From Zetaproteobacteria bacterium (GTDB lineage Bacteria; Pseudomonadota; Zetaproteobacteria; Mariprofundales; Mariprofundaceae): DNA of 64,000 nucleotides. Where the stretch lies: positions 1-64,000 of the forward strand of contig RFFT01000029.1 in assembly GCA_003696795.1 (NCBI GenBank), read 5' to 3'. The translations under genes and the position numbers were made by a program. The notes beneath the pieces are model-generated. The model worked only from the letters and a program-made list of their open reading frames with translations. It did not search any database and had not been told where the DNA came from. Positions 8,763-40,180 of the stretch are shown piece after piece (the stretch's first letter is position 1; every line of letters starts with the position of its first letter).

Positions 8763-11168
8763 TTATCCACCCCGGCCGGACAATTGCTCGCCCGCGCTAC
8801 CCACCAGCGTCGGCGTAATAAACAGCATCAACTCCACCCGCGTATCCTCTTTCTGGTTGCGTTGGAACAACTTGCCCAACAGAGGAATCTCGCTGAAAAA
8901 TGGGACGCTGTTTTTCGTATGCCCCACCGTCTTGGAGTAAATACCACCTAGCACGACCGTTTCACCATTGTCCACCAACAGCTTCGTGGTCAGCAGTTTC
9001 TTATCGATAATCGGATCGCCCCCTGGCACAAGCGTATTCGCCTGTGGCGTATCCTTGTGAATCTCGAGATTCATGATGATCTTGTTGTCCGCGGTGATCT
9101 GCGGTGTGGCGATCAAGCTCAGCTTGGCCTCGCGGGTCACCGTTGACGTCACCAAAATTCCCCCTTGGGCCGTGGTCTGCGTGAACGGAATCTCGATAAT
9201 CTGCTCAATGCGCGCCTGTTGGTTATTGCTGGTCAGCACGCGTGGATTGGACAACACCTTGATCTTCTGGTCCGCCTCGGCCGCCGAAAGCTCTAGATTC
9301 AGATTCAGCGCATTGCTCAGGGTGCCCAGGCTATAGCTGATCGCACCCGCAGGCCCCTGCGCCGGCAAATCGACCAGGTTGCCGCCGATACCACCTGTCA
9401 GCGTATGGCCAAACCGCTTGCCCACGGCCGCCGGGTTGGCATACGTGCCCCCCCATCTGACCCCCAAATCCCGGGTAAAGGCGTTCGTCGCTTCCACAAT
9501 GCGCGCCTCGATCAGCACTTGCTGCACCGGCTTGTCCAGCTCGGCGACCAGCCGTTTGATGTTTTCCACCCGCCAGGCGGTATCCGTCACGATCAAAATA
9601 TTGCTGCGCTTGTCCATCAGCAAAGAACCGCGCGGAGAAAGCAATGCCATGTTGCTGCTCTCGCTGGTGCCCGGCGCGGGCGCACCGGAGGCGGCAGCCT
9701 GTTCCGCCTTGCCGCCTCCGCCCTGCTTTCGCGCGCTTTCCAGCATCGCCTTGATATCTTCCACCGAGGCATAGCCCAGATGAATGAATTCGGTAACCAA
9801 CGGCTCCATATCCTGTGTTGCTTCGCGCGCCTTCATCCGCTCCTTGTACTCGCGTTGCAGCACATCCAGCGGAGCGATGCGCAGCACATTGCCCTGTTGA
9901 ACCTTACCCAAGCCTTTGGCCGCCAGAATCAAGTCCAGCGCTTGATCCCACGGAACATCCACCAAACGCATGGTCAACCGTCCACCCACATCATCGCCCA
10001 TGATGATGTTCAAGTCGCTCATCTCCGCGATTAAACGCAAGGCGTTGCGTATATCGATATCCTTGAAGTCGAAGCTCACCTTGCGCCCGTGATATGGCAA
10101 ACGCTCGCCCACCTTGCCAACTTCCTGCACAGGATGGAACGTCAGCGTCAGGACATTACCTGACTGGAACGAGGTCACGCGCGCCTCTTCACGCAGACGC
10201 GCCACAACCCGCACACCCTTGCCATGCTGATAACTGTCGATCTGCCCGACCGGCCCGGGAAAAGCGGACACATCGAGCGTACGCTCCAGCTTGCGTGCCA
10301 GTTTTGCCGCGGCGATATCGACGATCACCAATCCCTTGCGCTGGTGGACGTTGATATTCGCATCCGTGGATGCAGTGCGGATCACCAACTTGGGACTGTT
10401 GCCATTGGGCACATAATCCACCGCCTCTACCTGTTGCCCGCCCCGCCCCTGCGGCAAGCGCGCACCAAGCTGCAACACCCATTCCCCTTCGCCGCGCGCA
10501 ATCTGGCGATGCGCCGGCGCCGGTGTCGCCAACGTCACGACCATGCGCAACCGCTGACGAGCGCTGCCTACGGTAATCGCGCGCACATACTTGTCATCAT
10601 AGGAGAAATGTTCGCGCGCCAAACGCGACTCGCCCTGCCAGAAATCAACGATGATGGACTTTCCATCCTCGGTGACAAACAGGTTGTGATTGACATTCAT
10701 ATGCTCACCGCGCACATGCACTTCCGTACCATGCCCGGTGTTGCGCAACACGATATCTTTGATGATCGCGTGACCACCACGCGCATGCGACTTACCCTCA
10801 GCCAGTCGTAACTCCAGGTCCGCGCCCTGCTCATGCACGCGATACTGCGCCGTTTCGCTTAGCGCAAGCTCGATTCGAACCCCTTGTTCATCCTGCCGCC
10901 AGCGAATGGACCGCAACGCACCGTGTTGCGAAACCACTGGCGGTTGAATTCGATCAGCAAGGGTGGCGCCCGGCAGACGCAACACCAAACGATGCGGCGC
11001 GGACAACTCATAAACCCGATACTCCTGCGCTCGATCGAGATGCAAGCGCAGCAATGTGGCACCGCCTTCCGTGCGTACATCCGCCCCCGCAAGCTGTGCG
11101 GCATCCGCACCCACGGCAAGGCTACATAATGCCACCAGCAGGCAGCCCAGCTGCCACCATCTCATCAT
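8763..11168 (-). CDS. pilQ: Type IV pilus secretin PilQ with three AMIN domains
   Basis: Outer-membrane secretin through which the type IV pilus passes. The 801-aa protein has a signal peptide ending in GADA, then three AMIN-like beta domains (about 24-125, 135-240 and 255-360) that bind peptidoglycan. A secretin-TonB short domain follows (SFDFKDIDIRNALRLIAEMS, from about 370), then an N-domain (ITEFIHLGYASVED) and a C-terminal secretin channel (VLIEARIVEATNAFTRDLG to VPFFSEIPLLGKLF). A Gly/Ala-rich linker lies between the N-domain and the channel. It follows pilO by 2 bases; pilP is absent and may be compensated by the extra AMIN domain (inference). Confidence 0.95.
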   Translation of the reverse strand: MMRWWQLGCLLVALCSLAVGADAAQLAGADVRTEGGATLLRLHLDRAQEYRVYELSAPHRLVLRLPGATLADRIQPPVVSQHGALRSIRWRQDEQGVRIELALSETAQYRVHEQGADLELRLAEGKSHARGGHAIIKDIVLRNTGHGTEVHVRGEHMNVNHNLFVTEDGKSIIVDFWQGESRLAREHFSYDDKYVRAITVGSARQRLRMVVTLATPAPAHRQIARGEGEWVLQLGARLPQGRGGQQVEAVDYVPNGNSPKLVIRTASTDANINVHQRKGLVIVDIAAAKLARKLERTLDVSAFPGPVGQIDSYQHGKGVRVVARLREEARVTSFQSGNVLTLTFHPVQEVGKVGERLPYHGRKVSFDFKDIDIRNALRLIAEMSDLNIIMGDDVGGRLTMRLVDVPWDQALDLILAAKGLGKVQQGNVLRIAPLDVLQREYKERMKAREATQDMEPLVTEFIHLGYASVEDIKAMLESARKQGGGGKAEQAAASGAPAPGTSESSNMALLSPRGSLLMDKRSNILIVTDTAWRVENIKRLVAELDKPVQQVLIEARIVEATNAFTRDLGVRWGGTYANPAAVGKRFGHTLTGGIGGNLVDLPAQGPAGAISYSLGTLSNALNLNLELSAAEADQKIKVLSNPRVLTSNNQQARIEQIIEIPFTQTTAQGGILVTSTVTREAKLSLIATPQITADNKIIMNLEIHKDTPQANTLVPGGDPIIDKKLLTTKLLVDNGETVVLGGIYSKTVGHTKNSVPFFSEIPLLGKLFQRNQKEDTRVELMLFITPTLVGSAGEQLSGRGG

Positions 11169-11170
11169 GA

Positions 11171-11821
11171 CTACCTCCTCTGCCTTTGCCGCGCGCCGTG
11201 CCTCTTTCCCTTGGCGGGGGCGGATTTCGACGGCTCCACGAAGCGATAGGTTACCACCTGCCCGGACACTTCCAACGCATCCCTGCCCTTGCCTCGCTGG
11301 ATCGACAGTTCCTTCACCTCGACGATGCGCGGCATCTCACCCACCCGCTTGAGAAACGACAGCAATTGCTTGAAGCTTCCCGACAACGAGATCGCAACCG
11401 GAACCTCGGCGTACAACTCCCGCCGCACCTCCGGCTGGGGCGCAAAGGTACTGAACTCCAACCCCGCATCCTTGCCCGCCCAGGACACATCCGCGAGCAA
11501 GGTATCAATCTGCGACTTCTTCGGCAGCATATTCAGCGCAAGCTGAAGGTCGTGTCGCAACTGCTCGTACTCTTGCTTCTTTTCCGGCAGCTTGCTGGCC
11601 AGCTTTTGATGGTGTGCAAGCTTGTCGCGCTGTTGCTGCACCTGCTCGCGCAGGGTATCCATTTCCTCCTGTAATGGCATCCAGAGCAAACTGTCATACA
11701 ATCCAGCAAGCAGAACCAGACCGACAAGCAACGCCAACACCTTCTGCCGCATCGGATAACCGAGCAAGGGCCGGCAAGCATCAAGCAGACGATCAAGCTG
11801 CGACGACAGGCGCTCCATCAT
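11171..11821 (-). CDS. pilO: Type IV pilus alignment protein PilO
   Basis: Inner-membrane, mostly periplasmic subunit that pairs with PilN in the pilus alignment complex between PilM and the PilQ secretin. The 216-aa protein has one N-terminal membrane helix (about 28-48), a coiled coil (REQVQQQRDKLAHHQKLASK) and a ferredoxin-like domain with SLSGSFKQLLSFLKRVGEMPRI, a PilO hallmark. The C-terminal 20 residues are Lys/Arg-rich. It overlaps pilN by 4 bases. Confidence 0.92.
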   Translation of the reverse strand: MMERLSSQLDRLLDACRPLLGYPMRQKVLALLVGLVLLAGLYDSLLWMPLQEEMDTLREQVQQQRDKLAHHQKLASKLPEKKQEYEQLRHDLQLALNMLPKKSQIDTLLADVSWAGKDAGLEFSTFAPQPEVRRELYAEVPVAISLSGSFKQLLSFLKRVGEMPRIVEVKELSIQRGKGRDALEVSGQVVTYRFVEPSKSAPAKGKRHGARQRQRR

Positions 11822-12399
11822 CGTACCTTTCCTTGCCGCGTTGCAACCTGCGTCTCCTTGCCGCCGGCACGGGAGAGCAGCAGCTTGAATTCTCGCACAT
11901 TGTGACCCGCGACCCGCTGACGGGTAATGCCTTGCAAGCGAACCTCGGCAAACAGCGCCGATGCATCCAGGCGACGCATCAGGACAGCCACCGCCTTGTT
12001 ACTCTCCGCTCGCCCCGTCAACTGGATATGGTGCCCCTGGTCCTGCAACGACAGCAGCCAAACATCGTCCGGTATGCGCCGCGCAATCTCATGCAGGGCC
12101 AGCAGGACACGGAACCGACCGGTTTGCAATTGATCCACCAAACGCAACTTGCTTTCCACTTCTCGGCGCAGGCGCTCAATATTCCTAATCTCTCCAATTT
12201 TGCGCTCAATCGCTCGGTTTTTGGCTTGCAGCGAGGTCAACTCCCTCTGCATGGCATCCATCCGCGCCTGAGAGAACAGATGCCAGCTTGTCAACAGCAG
12301 CAGAAAGATCAGCAGTACGCCACCACCCACCAACAACTCGCGAAGCACCTGTCGGCGGCGCAATGCCGCCCGATACGGCAACAGATTGATGCGAATCAT
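11818..12399 (-). CDS. pilN: Type IV pilus assembly protein PilN
   Basis: Bitopic membrane protein that binds PilM through its cytoplasmic N-terminus and PilO through its periplasmic part. The N-terminal IRINLLPYR motif is the conserved PilM-binding peptide. A membrane helix follows at about 24-42, then a coiled coil and a fimbrial-assembly domain. The 193-aa length is normal. It overlaps pilM and pilO by 4 bases each, indicating translational coupling. Confidence 0.95.
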   Translation of the reverse strand: MIRINLLPYRAALRRRQVLRELLVGGGVLLIFLLLLTSWHLFSQARMDAMQRELTSLQAKNRAIERKIGEIRNIERLRREVESKLRLVDQLQTGRFRVLLALHEIARRIPDDVWLLSLQDQGHHIQLTGRAESNKAVAVLMRRLDASALFAEVRLQGITRQRVAGHNVREFKLLLSRAGGKETQVATRQGKVR

Positions 12400-13457
12400 G
12401 GCTGCTCACCAGAGCGCAACGCCAACCCCAGCGCCTCAATCATGCGTGGCCCTTGGCGACGCACCTCAATCGGATCAAAGCCCTTGTCATTCGGCAAGGC
12501 AATCGTTGGGAACGGCTGTAGCAGATCCAGCTCAATGTCCAGCCGCATCGCCAGCGCCTCGATCAGATTCGGCTGCAAAGCCGCACCGCCACTTAGCAGC
12601 ATGCGCGACACCGGTTGAGAATGGTTCGCCGCATAGAAATCCAATGCGCGCAGGATTTCCGCGGCCACCTGCTCATGATAGCGCTCGGCAGCGGCTGCCG
12701 GAATGGCGGCGGGATCTTCCAGCTTCAACTGTTCCGCCTGCTGAAAACTCATTCCGGTTTCCTTTTGGATCGCTTGGGTTAGGTCATTCCCGCCAATAAA
12801 ATGATCCCGCACAAAGGTGGTGCGCCCATCAACCAGGATATTGACATGCAACAAGGCGCCGCCGATGTCCACCAATGCGATTGCCTGCCCCGCCCCCGCG
12901 CGCTGAGCATTCCCAATAAGCTCCGCCATATTCTGAATGGCCAACACAGCACAATCCACACACACGAGATCCAGTCCCGCAGAGTCAAGCAATTGCTGAT
13001 ATTCCTCGACCAGCCCTTTCTTGCACACGGCCAACAACACGTCCATATGCCCCTCTTCATGCTCGGATGGACCGAGCACATGAAAGTCGAGGTTCAATTC
13101 ATCAATATCATAGGGAACATACTGATCGGCCTCATAGGCGATCTGGCCTTCGAGGTCGAGTTCGCTCATTTCCGGCAGGGTGATGGTCTTGATGATCACC
13201 GCATTTCCGGACACACCTATCGCGACGCGTCGCGTCGTCGTACCGGCCTTATCAAGCACTCGGCGCACAGCCTCGCCGACCAACTGCGCATCTTTGATCG
13301 CGCTTTCCACAATCGCCCCGGGAGGCAAAGGCTCGATGGCGGCGGCCTCAAGCACATAACCGCCACCGGAACCATCGCGCAGCTCGGCAAGCTTGATGGA
13401 GGCTGCGCCAATATCCAGCCCCACCAATGGCTTGCCCTTGCCTGCAAACAATGACAT
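12396..13457 (-). CDS. pilM: Type IV pilus assembly ATPase-like protein PilM
   Basis: Actin/FtsA-like cytoplasmic protein of the pilus alignment complex. The 353-aa protein has the phosphate-binding LVGLDIGAASIKLAEL near residue 15, SELDLEGQIAYEADQYVPYD, LVDIGGALLHVNI and a C-terminal MLLSGGAALQPNL motif typical of the actin fold. The start at 13457 (MSLFAG) is preceded by a GGGAGGG run; an in-frame ATG 12 bases upstream at 13469 is an alternative. It is the first gene of the pilMNOQ-aroB run on this strand. Confidence 0.94.
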   Translation of the reverse strand: MSLFAGKGKPLVGLDIGAASIKLAELRDGSGGGYVLEAAAIEPLPPGAIVESAIKDAQLVGEAVRRVLDKAGTTTRRVAIGVSGNAVIIKTITLPEMSELDLEGQIAYEADQYVPYDIDELNLDFHVLGPSEHEEGHMDVLLAVCKKGLVEEYQQLLDSAGLDLVCVDCAVLAIQNMAELIGNAQRAGAGQAIALVDIGGALLHVNILVDGRTTFVRDHFIGGNDLTQAIQKETGMSFQQAEQLKLEDPAAIPAAAAERYHEQVAAEILRALDFYAANHSQPVSRMLLSGGAALQPNLIEALAMRLDIELDLLQPFPTIALPNDKGFDPIEVRRQGPRMIEALGLALRSGEQP

Positions 13458-13540
13458 CGACCCTCCCATCCCTCGCCATGCAGATCAGCGAAGCTCACGC
13501 AACATAACGCAGGAGGGAAGGCGACGTCAACGATAGTGGG

Positions 13541-14071
13541 CTATTGGCCGAGAATCGAACGAATCTCCCTTGGCGTGGCATGCGTACGGCTGCTGCCGCA
13601 TACCGTACCACCCGTGCCTACCTCCGAACTGCTCGTAGCATCATCCGACGACTTGTCTTTACCATCATCACTGTCCGACGACTTGTCTTTACCATCATCA
13701 CTGTCCGACGACTTGTCTTTGTCATCATCACTGTCCGACGACTTGTCTTTGTCATCATCGCTGTCCGATGACTTGTCTTTGCCATCATCGCTATCTGACG
13801 ACTTGTCATCCGACGTTGAACCACTGCCAGCACTGCTGCAGCCGGATTTGCCCAATGTGCCATCACTGCACACGCAATTCTCTATGCCGCTTGGGCACTG
13901 ACATGAGTAGCTGTCATCACTTTCGCTATCCTTATCGCTCGAAGCATCCGTACCCTTACCATCCTTCGACCCATCTGACGCTTGGGCCGGAGCGACCCAC
14001 TCGCCACCAACCGGATGCCAAGCCAAAAAACCCAACGCCAACATGGCCACGAACAGGAAACCTTGCTTCAT
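13541..14071 (-). CDS. Secreted Ser/Asp-repeat protein between the minor-pilin and pilM genes
   Basis: Not recognised as a known family. The 176-aa product has a signal peptide (hydrophobic to about residue 17, likely cleavage after APAQA), a Ser/Asp-rich segment, a Cys cluster (five Cys from CQCPSG to KSGC) and then five perfect-phase 10-residue repeats of the form KDKSSDSDDG/D. A C-terminal segment has one more Cys and ends in REIRSILGQ. A GGGAGGTGAAAC ribosome-binding site supports the ATG. Composition is extremely acidic and unlike its neighbours. It sits on the pilus strand where pilY1 or pilE is often found, so a surface or pilus-linked role is possible (inference). Confidence 0.75.
   Translation of the reverse strand: MKQGFLFVAMLALGFLAWHPVGGEWVAPAQASDGSKDGKGTDASSDKDSESDDSYSCQCPSGIENCVCSDGTLGKSGCSSAGSGSTSDDKSSDSDDGKDKSSDSDDDKDKSSDSDDDKDKSSDSDDGKDKSSDSDDGKDKSSDDATSSSEVGTGGTVCGSSRTHATPREIRSILGQ
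13651..13800 (-). repeat. Five tandem 30-bp repeats coding Ser/Asp decapeptides
   Basis: Five head-to-tail 30-base units at 13651, 13681, 13711, 13741 and 13771, followed by a truncated half unit to 13815. Units differ only by a few third-position changes (acc/gtc/gcc and atc/gct positions), so the array is recent or kept uniform by recombination. The length is a multiple of 3, so copy-number changes would preserve the reading frame of the secreted protein. Confidence 0.97.
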
Positions 14072-14139: not shown

Positions 14140-15033
14140 TCACATTATCACCGCACGCAAAATGGAAACAGGGTGACCGTCCACATAACCAATCGCGTAT
14201 GCGACAAGACCATAACTGTTCAACCATTGTCCCGTGTGCGCATCACAGGCTTGTGCCTGCACAAACGCTGCATCCGCCGCGTTGCATGGACATGAAGGCA
14301 AACTCCCGCCCGCACACGCCGTCGGCTGTGTGCCGCCATACAACGAGGATGGATCCAGCGCAAAGATCTCGATATCCCTACTGGCCGTGCCTGCGGTCAA
14401 CCACACCACAGCGCCGTTGTTCGGCACATCCTCGCCCACGACAGGCGGTGAACGATGCGGCAAGCGGGGGATACTCGCGCTGATGACACCGGAACTATTC
14501 ATTTCCAGCTTGATGTAACGAGGCAAACGCGCACTAATCCCGTCCATGAGCGGCATCACCCGTTGATCGGGGGGGAGCGAGAAATCGATACAGTTGCTGA
14601 ACGAAGCCGAACTTTCCACGCAGACAGCCCGATCCTGCATCGGGGTATTGTCAAAGTACATAAGCTGCCCTTTCTTGCCTGCCCCCGAACTCGCAATCGT
14701 CGTTGGACCCGGATACCATGGATAGGCGAACAACTCGCTATAATCTCCAACGCTGCCGGCATTGGAGGGAAACGGCGGCTCGCCGAACGATGTCTGATAG
14801 GTTCCACCTGGACTATAGCTGTCCAGCTCTGCGTCATGATTCAATGCCCAGGCGAGATAATGGATGCCAGCCTCGGCAAAATAGAACCCCTGTGTTGCGC
14901 GCTGTGCCGCCGCACTGGTCTGCACGCCGGCACGACTCACGAAATACAGCCCGAGACCGAGCAAGGTAAGCAAGGTAAGAACAATCAACGACATGGGCAA
15001 CACAAACCCCGCCTCGCGTCGCATACCCCTCAT
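14140..15033 (-). CDS. pilX: PilX-like minor pilin / assembly protein
   Basis: Minor pilin-like protein with an uncleaved or class III-type N-terminus: MRGMRREAGFVLPMSLIVLTL followed by a hydrophobic helix and GFYFAEAG, the arrangement of the PilX N-terminal domain. The 297-aa protein is larger than P. aeruginosa PilX (about 195) and its C-terminal part contains several Cys pairs (CAGG, CPCN). The ATG at 15033 has GGAGGAATTAGC upstream; a frame extending to 15165 is in pilW. It is the last pilin-type gene of the fimT-pilV-pilW-pilX run. Confidence 0.82.
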   Translation of the reverse strand: MRGMRREAGFVLPMSLIVLTLLTLLGLGLYFVSRAGVQTSAAAQRATQGFYFAEAGIHYLAWALNHDAELDSYSPGGTYQTSFGEPPFPSNAGSVGDYSELFAYPWYPGPTTIASSGAGKKGQLMYFDNTPMQDRAVCVESSASFSNCIDFSLPPDQRVMPLMDGISARLPRYIKLEMNSSGVISASIPRLPHRSPPVVGEDVPNNGAVVWLTAGTASRDIEIFALDPSSLYGGTQPTACAGGSLPSCPCNAADAAFVQAQACDAHTGQWLNSYGLVAYAIGYVDGHPVSILRAVIM

Positions 15034-15034
15034 G

Positions 15035-15541
15035 CTAATTCCTCCTGCGCACCTTGAACGAAAGCGAAATCGTTCGCGGCTGTCGATCCTTGCCGATATA
15101 GCGCCCCTGCAAACTGATCGTCCAAGTGCTCGCCGATTGCGCCACTTGCAGACCGTTCGCACCATCGAGATCGCGGATCAGCTCCTGACACCCGCCTGCA
15201 AGGCTCGGTCGGTCCCAACAAATGCGGTTCTGTGCTGCATCCAGCCGAAACGCCCCGTTCGCACTAGCCACGCTATCACAGCCAGTCGGCAGGACGCTGG
15301 TCGAGTCCAACGGCTGATAAATCAATTCCGCATTCGTAGCGTTCCAACATATTCCCTGCGCGGTGCGCAATTCACCCTGCATGATTTGACTCGCAAGGTA
15401 TAGGTCACCCATACGCTCGTTGCGCGCGATCTCGGCGCGACCGCTGCCGGCGGCAGACACATACACCAGCACAATGCCACCCAGAATCACCACCCCCGCC
15501 AGCATGGCAACCAGCAACTCGACCAGGGTATATCCACGCAC
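15035..15541 (-). CDS. pilW: PilW-like minor pilin
   Basis: Minor pilin with a short leader cut after MRG, leaving a mature N-terminus YTLVELLVAMLAGVVILG with the conserved Glu5, followed by a membrane helix. The 168-aa length is short for PilW (usually 250 or more), but position between pilV and pilX and the PilW-like ERMGDLYLASQIMQGELR segment support the call. Four Cys residues could form disulfides. It starts 2 bases after the end of pilV on the minus strand and ends 1 base before the pilX start. Confidence 0.82.
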   Translation of the reverse strand: MRGYTLVELLVAMLAGVVILGGIVLVYVSAAGSGRAEIARNERMGDLYLASQIMQGELRTAQGICWNATNAELIYQPLDSTSVLPTGCDSVASANGAFRLDAAQNRICWDRPSLAGGCQELIRDLDGANGLQVAQSASTWTISLQGRYIGKDRQPRTISLSFKVRRRN

Positions 15542-15543
15542 GG

Positions 15544-16050
15544 CTACTTCACCTCCGAAACATGGAGCAGAAACACCGAATGAAGGCGACCCGCATCCTT
15601 GGAGGCATTCCCCGTCTTCTTGTGATACCAGGACACTTTGACTGTTTTCACCTTGGGCACCAAGGTCAGGCCGGCCACACCCGTCAACGCCGCAAGCGCC
15701 GGTGTGGCACCGGGCATCGGCGCACTCAACCCCTGCTCGTTCGCCTCAATATTAAAAGTCACATGCACCAAGGGAGAAATGCAACTGGACGTCAGCGGAT
15801 AGCTCGATGCGTTCTGGGCCGCCGCACTCGAACAATCGCTCCGCAACGAAGGAAAATTATCGTTCGCATCAGCCTGCCATTCCTCCAGCAACGATTCCGC
15901 AAGATGTACCGCCGCAATCCGCTCACGGGCCAGCTCGCCCTGATCCAGCATCGACAAGGTAAAAGCGCCCAAAGCCAACAGAGCAACCATGCTCACCAAC
16001 ATGGCAACCATCACCTCCACCAAACCAAACCCACGTATGTCCGCCGTCAT
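15544..16050 (-). CDS. pilV: PilV-like minor pilin
   Basis: Type IV minor pilin with leader MTADIRG and mature N-terminus FGLVEVMVAMLVSMVALLAL containing the conserved Glu5 and the VEVMVA signature of PilV. The 168-aa length fits. The 3' half has paired Cys residues. Overlaps the fimT-like gene by 4 bases. Minor pilins of this set prime pilus assembly in the inner membrane. Confidence 0.85.
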   Translation of the reverse strand: MTADIRGFGLVEVMVAMLVSMVALLALGAFTLSMLDQGELARERIAAVHLAESLLEEWQADANDNFPSLRSDCSSAAAQNASSYPLTSSCISPLVHVTFNIEANEQGLSAPMPGATPALAALTGVAGLTLVPKVKTVKVSWYHKKTGNASKDAGRLHSVFLLHVSEVK

Positions 16051-16532
16051 AGATAAGCCCTGCCAATCGCATTCAAGGTGATCTTACGCTGGGTGCCATG
16101 CACATCCAGCGTAATCGAGCCGAAATTCACGGTACCACGACTGGTGAACGTGCGCGTGGTCGTTGGAGACAGGCTGATCGCCGGATCAAACTGGGTCAAA
16201 TCGATGGACTGGTTCCGGCAACGCGTACAGCTACCCGTTGTATCCGCATCGAACACATAACCTTGACTGGTGAAGGTAATGCGCACCTGACGGTTTTCAG
16301 ATACGGCCAGCGACCTAGCCTGTTTCAGATGGGACAACAGCATGCTCGCCGCGCTGCGCACCGCCTGCTGACGCTGCCAAGATGCCACCGCTGGCAACGC
16401 GATGGCCAGCGCAATGCCAAGAATGGCCACCACCATCAGCAATTCCAGCAGGGTGAATCCATGTTCGCCTTGCCTGCCCCATGGCCTTCGGCCTAGATTC
16501 GCCGCAATGCGCATTTTCCTCATCATGTTCAA
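16047..16532 (-). CDS. fimT: FimT/GspH-like pseudopilin
   Basis: Prepilin of the FimT/FimU/GspH family: leader ending in GEHG, mature N-terminus FTLLELLMVVAILGIALAIA with Glu5, and a C-terminal GspH-like domain with CTRCRN and a Gly/Thr-rich end (TLDVHGTQRKITLNAIGRAYL region). Length 161 aa with the ATG at 16532; the in-frame ATG at 16514 would give a 19-residue leader and is also plausible. The 5' end overlaps the divergent ponA start (16507), so the two genes share a compact head-to-head region. Confidence 0.85.
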   Translation of the reverse strand: MNMMRKMRIAANLGRRPWGRQGEHGFTLLELLMVVAILGIALAIALPAVASWQRQQAVRSAASMLLSHLKQARSLAVSENRQVRITFTSQGYVFDADTTGSCTRCRNQSIDLTQFDPAISLSPTTTRTFTSRGTVNFGSITLDVHGTQRKITLNAIGRAYL

Positions 16533-40123: not shown

Positions 40124-40131
40124 ACACTACC

Positions 40132-40180
40132 TCTCTGGCCTCTCTGGCCTCTCTGGCCTCTCTGGCCTCTCTGGCCTCTC
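40132..40180 (-). repeat. Five tandem 9-bp repeats at the ribosome-binding region
   Basis: Unit TCTCTGGCC on the plus strand (GGCCAGAGA on the minus strand) repeats five times at 40132-40176 with a partial sixth unit (TCTC). The array lies 8 bases upstream of the REC-HPt start, and the last unit supplies AGAGAGG, the only likely Shine-Dalgarno sequence. Confidence 0.97.

Follow-up and report, generated by a model that had tools for sequence, protein, structure and literature searches.

Secreted repeat proteins encoded next to pilX in Zetaproteobacteria, candidate partners of a minor pilin

The window, i.e. the whole stretch of 64,000 nucleotides that was analysed, contains a type IV pilus locus, where a gene for a small repetitive protein is found at the spot in which pilY1 normally lies. 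PilY1 is regarded as core of the tip and priming complex of type IVa pili; what occupies its place in this locus, and what does the occupant share with its relatives in other genomes? The host genome (1.55 Mb, 97.5% complete) belongs to the Mariprofundaceae, within the Zetaproteobacteria, a class of marine iron oxidisers, represented here by 78 genomes in three families.

The repeat gene and its locus

The genes of the locus are all on the minus strand, in the order fimT-pilV-pilW-pilX-[repeat gene]-pilM-pilN-pilO-pilQ. The four minor pilin genes are a fimT/fimU-like one (16047..16532, identified by GspH and N_methyl), a pilV-like one (15544..16050, N_methyl and synteny), a pilW-like one (15035..15541), for which synteny accompanies an N_methyl score of 18.3 bits, below the cut-off, and pilX (14140..15030), identified by PilX_N, homologues and an AlphaFold2 model. 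On the other side of the repeat gene, pilM (12396..13469; PilM_2, E 3.9e-76) starts the pilMNOQ group. Within 8763-13469 pilQ directly follows pilO, with no pilP between them, and the same is seen in the related loci read. A pilM-based scan of the genome contigs gave no match.

The repeat gene corresponds to a mechanically called open reading frame of 176 codons with an ATG start (13541..14071, minus strand). The ATG is preceded by GGGAGGTGAAAC, and a strong ribosome-binding site, GGGAGGTGAAACATG, lies ahead of the frame. The N-terminus of the protein, MKQGFLFVAMLALGFLAW...APAQA/SDG, appears by inspection to be a Sec/SPI-type signal without lipobox Cys (putative signal peptide at 13979..14071, predicted cleavage AQA/SDG). 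The mature protein, of 145 aa, contains 39 S, 34 D, 15 K and 6 C, with a pI of 4.1 and a net charge of -20. A Cys region, CQCPSGIENCVCSDGTLGKSGC, located approximately at 13832..13907 on the basis of alignment A1 (profile match 13814-13909), is common to the congeners and to much of the family described below. It is followed by an array (13644..13807; period 30 bp, 5.5 copies, 94% match, score 265), the top-scoring among the tandem repeats reported in the window by Tandem Repeats Finder, which encodes five decapeptides of the form SSDSDD[G/D]KDK (residues 91-140). The protein ends with IRSILGQ, immediately before the stop codon (13541..13564). Elsewhere in the window, at 40130-40180, a perfect 9-bp tandem repeat, CCTCTCTGG, is present in 5.7 copies.

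The signal peptide, the Cys-rich segment and the extreme acidity proposed in the initial annotation are thus all found. Five decapeptides are present, as had also been stated, but they are near-identical rather than identical: position 7 is G in three of them and D in two.

Two congeners encode close orthologues (E 1e-9 and 5e-8). Since these share the Cys motif and the tail, and hold the equivalent place in the locus, the frame is not a chance one. In both the protein ends with RSILGR, but the repeats are of SKDK type. Searches of Pfam, NCBIfam and PDB sequences with the window protein returned nothing or compositional noise. In particular, no Pfam match was obtained, neither for the PF05567 C-terminal beta-propeller domain nor for N_methyl, the type III signal of pilins, in place of which a classical signal peptide is present; the sequence contains no LPXTG or other wall anchor.

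A family located behind pilX

A scan of the PilX alignment against 84,980 species genomes produced 46 loci, almost all of them with titles that name Zetaproteobacteria, Mariprofundaceae, Mariprofundus (ferrooxydans PV-1, micogutta, erugo and others) or Ghiorsea; the odd titles are "uncultured proteobacterium" (L188) and Desulfuromonadales (L197). For 41 of the 46, all from different species, at least 700 bp are available behind pilX, and in 32 of these 41 readable loci a related protein, belonging to what is here called the CTM family, is encoded just downstream of pilX. The count includes 31 loci with a relaxed-tail frame and one, L159, read separately because the start of its frame is over-extended. 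Outside the host's genus, between one and four small exported proteins are encoded in the gap that follows pilX. Several of the exceptions harbour a member at another genomic site (G049, G053, G055, G058, G059, G061); co-location with pilX is not absolute, since in G049, G053, G055 and G061 the copies lie near a membrane partner, unlinked from pilX. In three loci the tail-family gene has relocated, and the gene immediately behind pilX encodes an outer-membrane transporter of FadL/OMPP1 type (L083:4317-5534, L084:5242-6486, L085:5383-6666). The association of the family with pilus genes, the absence of which had been indicated at the outset as grounds for discarding a pilus-related role, is strongly supported by these data.

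The family is almost confined to the class, as anticipated by the initial suggestion of a lineage-specific component. Profile A1 matches 44 of the 74 genomes of the host's taxonomic family (E<=0.1); in a phylum sample of 399 genomes, it matches 35 genomes of the same family and three of a second family of the order. The three matches obtained outside the class are weak (E over 3e-4), fall in reading frames of 23-61 aa and look like chance. The Desulfuromonadales-labelled contig carries, at L197:948-3072, pilX, an SD-repeat tail protein ending with FREILGK, and then the gene for TMA, a membrane protein described below; this order derives from either transfer or a binning error.

What the members have in common is an export signal, a CxC..CxC region and, most clearly, a C-terminal peptide, on which the initial annotation is silent: most of them (alignment A1; 61 members collected) end with x-R-[EST]-[IVLM]-x-G-[QEKRN]-COOH. 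Over the 46 loci, the strict tail is found in 32 of the 168 frames near and downstream of pilX, where 0.006 would be expected according to within-protein shuffling, and in only 2 of the 1086 frames located elsewhere, both of which encode family members at more distant positions in these loci (Fisher p 3e-27, a test that overstates independence, the genomes being related). The tail is not a single motif, because in five Ghiorsea loci, among the 32 with a member, the protein ends with FQ[AP]F, and several Mariprofundus genomes feature a second class of tail, R[SA][FY]-COOH, on their first paralogue. Many members also carry a TICHxPPGNPxNxxTLSV...AHLAHGDxxGxC segment, absent from the window protein, for which no Pfam family was matched (examples at L068:4778-5449 and L062:12002-12724).

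The repeat, in contrast, is the least conserved part. SKSD, DDDDKSK, NDNES, KDGKD and KYEDKSK types are found in other genera, as well as DN, and the repeats of relatives may be of SK, DN, KD or uncharged type; net charge per residue spans -0.22 to +0.06, with a median of -0.08. The proposal, made from the sequence of the window protein, that Ser/Asp repeats form a calcium-binding or extended adhesin stalk finds no support in its relatives. Because charge is not conserved, an acidic calcium- or metal-binding stalk cannot be the function of the family, and was dropped as such; it may be a specialty of the window member.

The family is undescribed: it has no Pfam, NCBIfam or PDB entry, and a literature search, over a partial library, found no paper describing either the tail family or the CHxPPGNP motif.

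PilY1, minor pilins and membrane partners

No PilY1 was detected by PF05567 in any of the 78 genomes of the class, the window genome included, so that the description of the spot as one normally occupied by pilY1 was apt. The searches of the window genome and of the class had an uninformative control, and were relied on only after the same model matched 76 of 299 phylum-sample genomes, which serve as positive control. A diverged PilY1, below the reach of the PF05567 model, may nevertheless exist in the class.

Two alternative minor-pilin cassettes are found at the pilX locus. Small PilX proteins, of about 250-400 aa, end with YAIGYVNGxxxxLIRxVI; giant ones measure about 670-1060 aa and, in several genomes, are followed by a gene named by inspection as DUF4124/cytochrome-like. 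Examples of the latter arrangement, in which a giant PilX of ~960-1030 aa precedes a small DUF4124/cytochrome-c-like gene, with no tail-family proteins, are L057:4171-7257, L064:5792-8713 and L065:8321-11218. A CTM member is present in 39 of the 51 small-PilX genomes and in none of the 11 giant-PilX ones (p 2.7e-6, from lists compiled by hand and taking no account of relatedness).

The PilX of the window, of 296 aa, is of the small type. It scores 25.1 bits against PilX_N, just under the cut-off of 25.5, and 35 of 42 homologues match the model. Its AlphaFold2 model (pLDDT 88.8) terminates with a two-strand hairpin (residues 274-283 and 286-294), YAIGYVDGHPVSILRAVIM, within which Y278 and R292 are invariant and G285 is conserved in at least 90%. 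Comparison of the PilX model with the PDB by Foldseek gave no significant match.

Two membrane proteins recur beside family members. TMA is a multi-helix protein of 272 aa with invariant NxAREDG, DD....HER, LDFxEG and HFxKxxEExLEM motifs (examples at L067:5619-6440, L131:4263-5081 and L204:7670-8470); it has no Pfam family, and Foldseek found no significant PDB match for its model (pLDDT 69.8). SPD, of ~950 aa, combines MFS-like, spermidine-synthase-like and TPR parts (examples at L062:8631-11438 and L071:8742-11549). Over 74 genomes, TMA is present in 18, SPD in 26, and both in none (p 1e-4 overall, 2.7e-4 within genus g11); neither is found in giant-PilX genomes. TMA lies beside CTM members at pilX as well as at sites unlinked from it (L131-L134), and SPD adjoins copies unlinked from pilX in L135, L136 and L138. 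Both are absent from the window genome, despite its 97.5% completeness, and from six further genomes with the family; unless lost in assembly gaps, they are therefore not essential to its basic function. A third membrane protein, of ~500 aa and GT-C-like by inspection, adjoins tail genes at L071:7180-8712, L141:3370-4869 and L172:7831-9309; it has no match in Pfam, and possibly glycosylates the Ser-rich repeats.

Docking on PilX and alternative readings

The reading preferred here, to which a probability of about 0.45 is assigned, is that CTM proteins are Sec-exported pilus-tip cargo or adhesins, standing in the place of PilY1, and that their C-terminal peptide docks on PilX. Prior to extension, and still in the periplasm, the R-[ES]-[IV]-x-G-[QEKRN] peptide would bind the beta-hairpin that terminates PilX; the docked protein would then exit through PilQ at the tip, or the pilus would release it. 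The array of repeats, acidic and of Ser/Asp type in the window member, would act as a disordered spacer of rapidly changing length and chemistry, and the Cys motifs probably form modules closed by disulphide bonds. We infer the secretion route, the docking on PilX, the location at the tip and the adhesion from sequence and gene arrangement. A single tip slot is hard to reconcile with the several paralogues, up to four, that a locus may contain.

Secreted proteins bound to minor pilins are already known. TcpF of V. cholerae and CofJ of ETEC dock on trimers of minor pilins through a short terminal peptide (PMC9565799). Like CTM proteins, in which the signal was recognized by inspection, these type IVb pilus proteins are soluble, Sec-exported and encoded with the pilus operon, and a short terminal peptide is the candidate signal for minor-pilin docking. 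Their T4bP-SS signal, however, is N-terminal and their bodies are folded; the mature N-terminus of CTM proteins runs into variable repeat sequence, the conserved peptide is C-terminal, most of the protein consists of repeats and the pilus is T4a-like. The likeness to PilY1/PilC lies in a gene adjoining pilX within the minor-pilin operon, and in an exported non-pilin, with a tip role and PilX as contact, both proposed on the CTM side; joining of PilX and PilY1 by beta-strand complementation has been predicted (PMC13190605). CTM proteins, in contrast, measure ~100-340 aa, are of low complexity and lack the PF05567 beta-propeller, while PilY1 exceeds 1000 aa. In the PilA-PilC pair of S. sanguinis, beta-strand complementation has been modelled, through which a minor pilin is completed by its small partner (PMC9934059); both proteins of this pair are pilins.

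The strongest competitor of PilX docking is that the C-terminal peptide serves as a signal for sorting or modification, recognized by a partner in the inner membrane (TMA, SPD or the GT-C-like protein), which would process, lipidate or glycosylate the CTM protein; the linkage to pilX would then reflect shared export or regulation. Since an extra membrane protein is usually present, the tail may indeed be read by it instead of PilX. The lack of overlap between TMA and SPD is consistent with such a role, as are the copies that, although unlinked from pilX, still lie beside one or the other, the GT-C-like gene adjoining copies in three loci, and the many invariant polar residues in or near the TMA helices. 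A short C-terminal signature on diverse exported proteins, with a co-occurring membrane protein, also recalls PEP-CTERM and MYXO-CTERM; yet CTM proteins have no hydrophobic C-terminal anchor or basic tail, their motif is at the extreme C-terminus, and TMA and SPD are not known sortases. As TMA has neither a Pfam family nor a significant fold match, and seven genomes with the family, including that of the window, contain neither TMA nor SPD, this reading is considered somewhat unlikely. Less credit still is given to a free extracellular matrix or mineral protein, whose acidic Ser/Asp repeats would bind Fe(III) oxyhydroxide or divalent metals, the pilus locus providing co-expression only. The iron-oxidising habit of the class, the pI of 4.1 and 34 Asp of the window member, and the acidity of many others (median -0.08 per residue) suit it; but acidity is not conserved, both the conserved tail and the exclusion from giant-PilX genomes would be left unexplained, and pili or pilins are nowhere mentioned in the pan-genome study of stalk genes of the class.

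Two further readings are highly improbable. Ser/Asp repeats recall the calcium-binding stalks of staphylococcal MSCRAMMs (ClfA/ClfB/Sdr), and the SD/SK repeat of one relative matches the ClfB and SdrD models by composition. These matches are far below the curated cut-offs and cover repeats only, the host is Gram-negative, and no Pfam match is found; membership is refuted by the lack of an IgG-like A domain and of LPXTG, and by an SD dipeptide that is not conserved among homologues. A non-functional or orphan repeat frame, suggested by the low complexity of the DNA and by close orthologues limited to two congeners, is opposed by the strong ribosome-binding site and by the conservation, across the class, of export signal, Cys motif, tail and position.

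A broader proposal is advanced only tentatively: the tip PilY1 of the class may have been replaced by modular small secreted repeat proteins, with a C-terminal docking or secretion peptide read by PilX and interchangeable membrane accessory enzymes. The tail signature is searchable, and provides an annotation for dozens of Mariprofundus and Ghiorsea proteins listed as hypothetical, plus two unnamed families of membrane proteins. The class, whose iron oxidisers are important in the environment, has no detected PilY1 but carries PilX-linked secreted proteins with a common C-terminal peptide, and offers a direct test of what a pilus tip requires; a disordered carrier with a short peptide might suffice.
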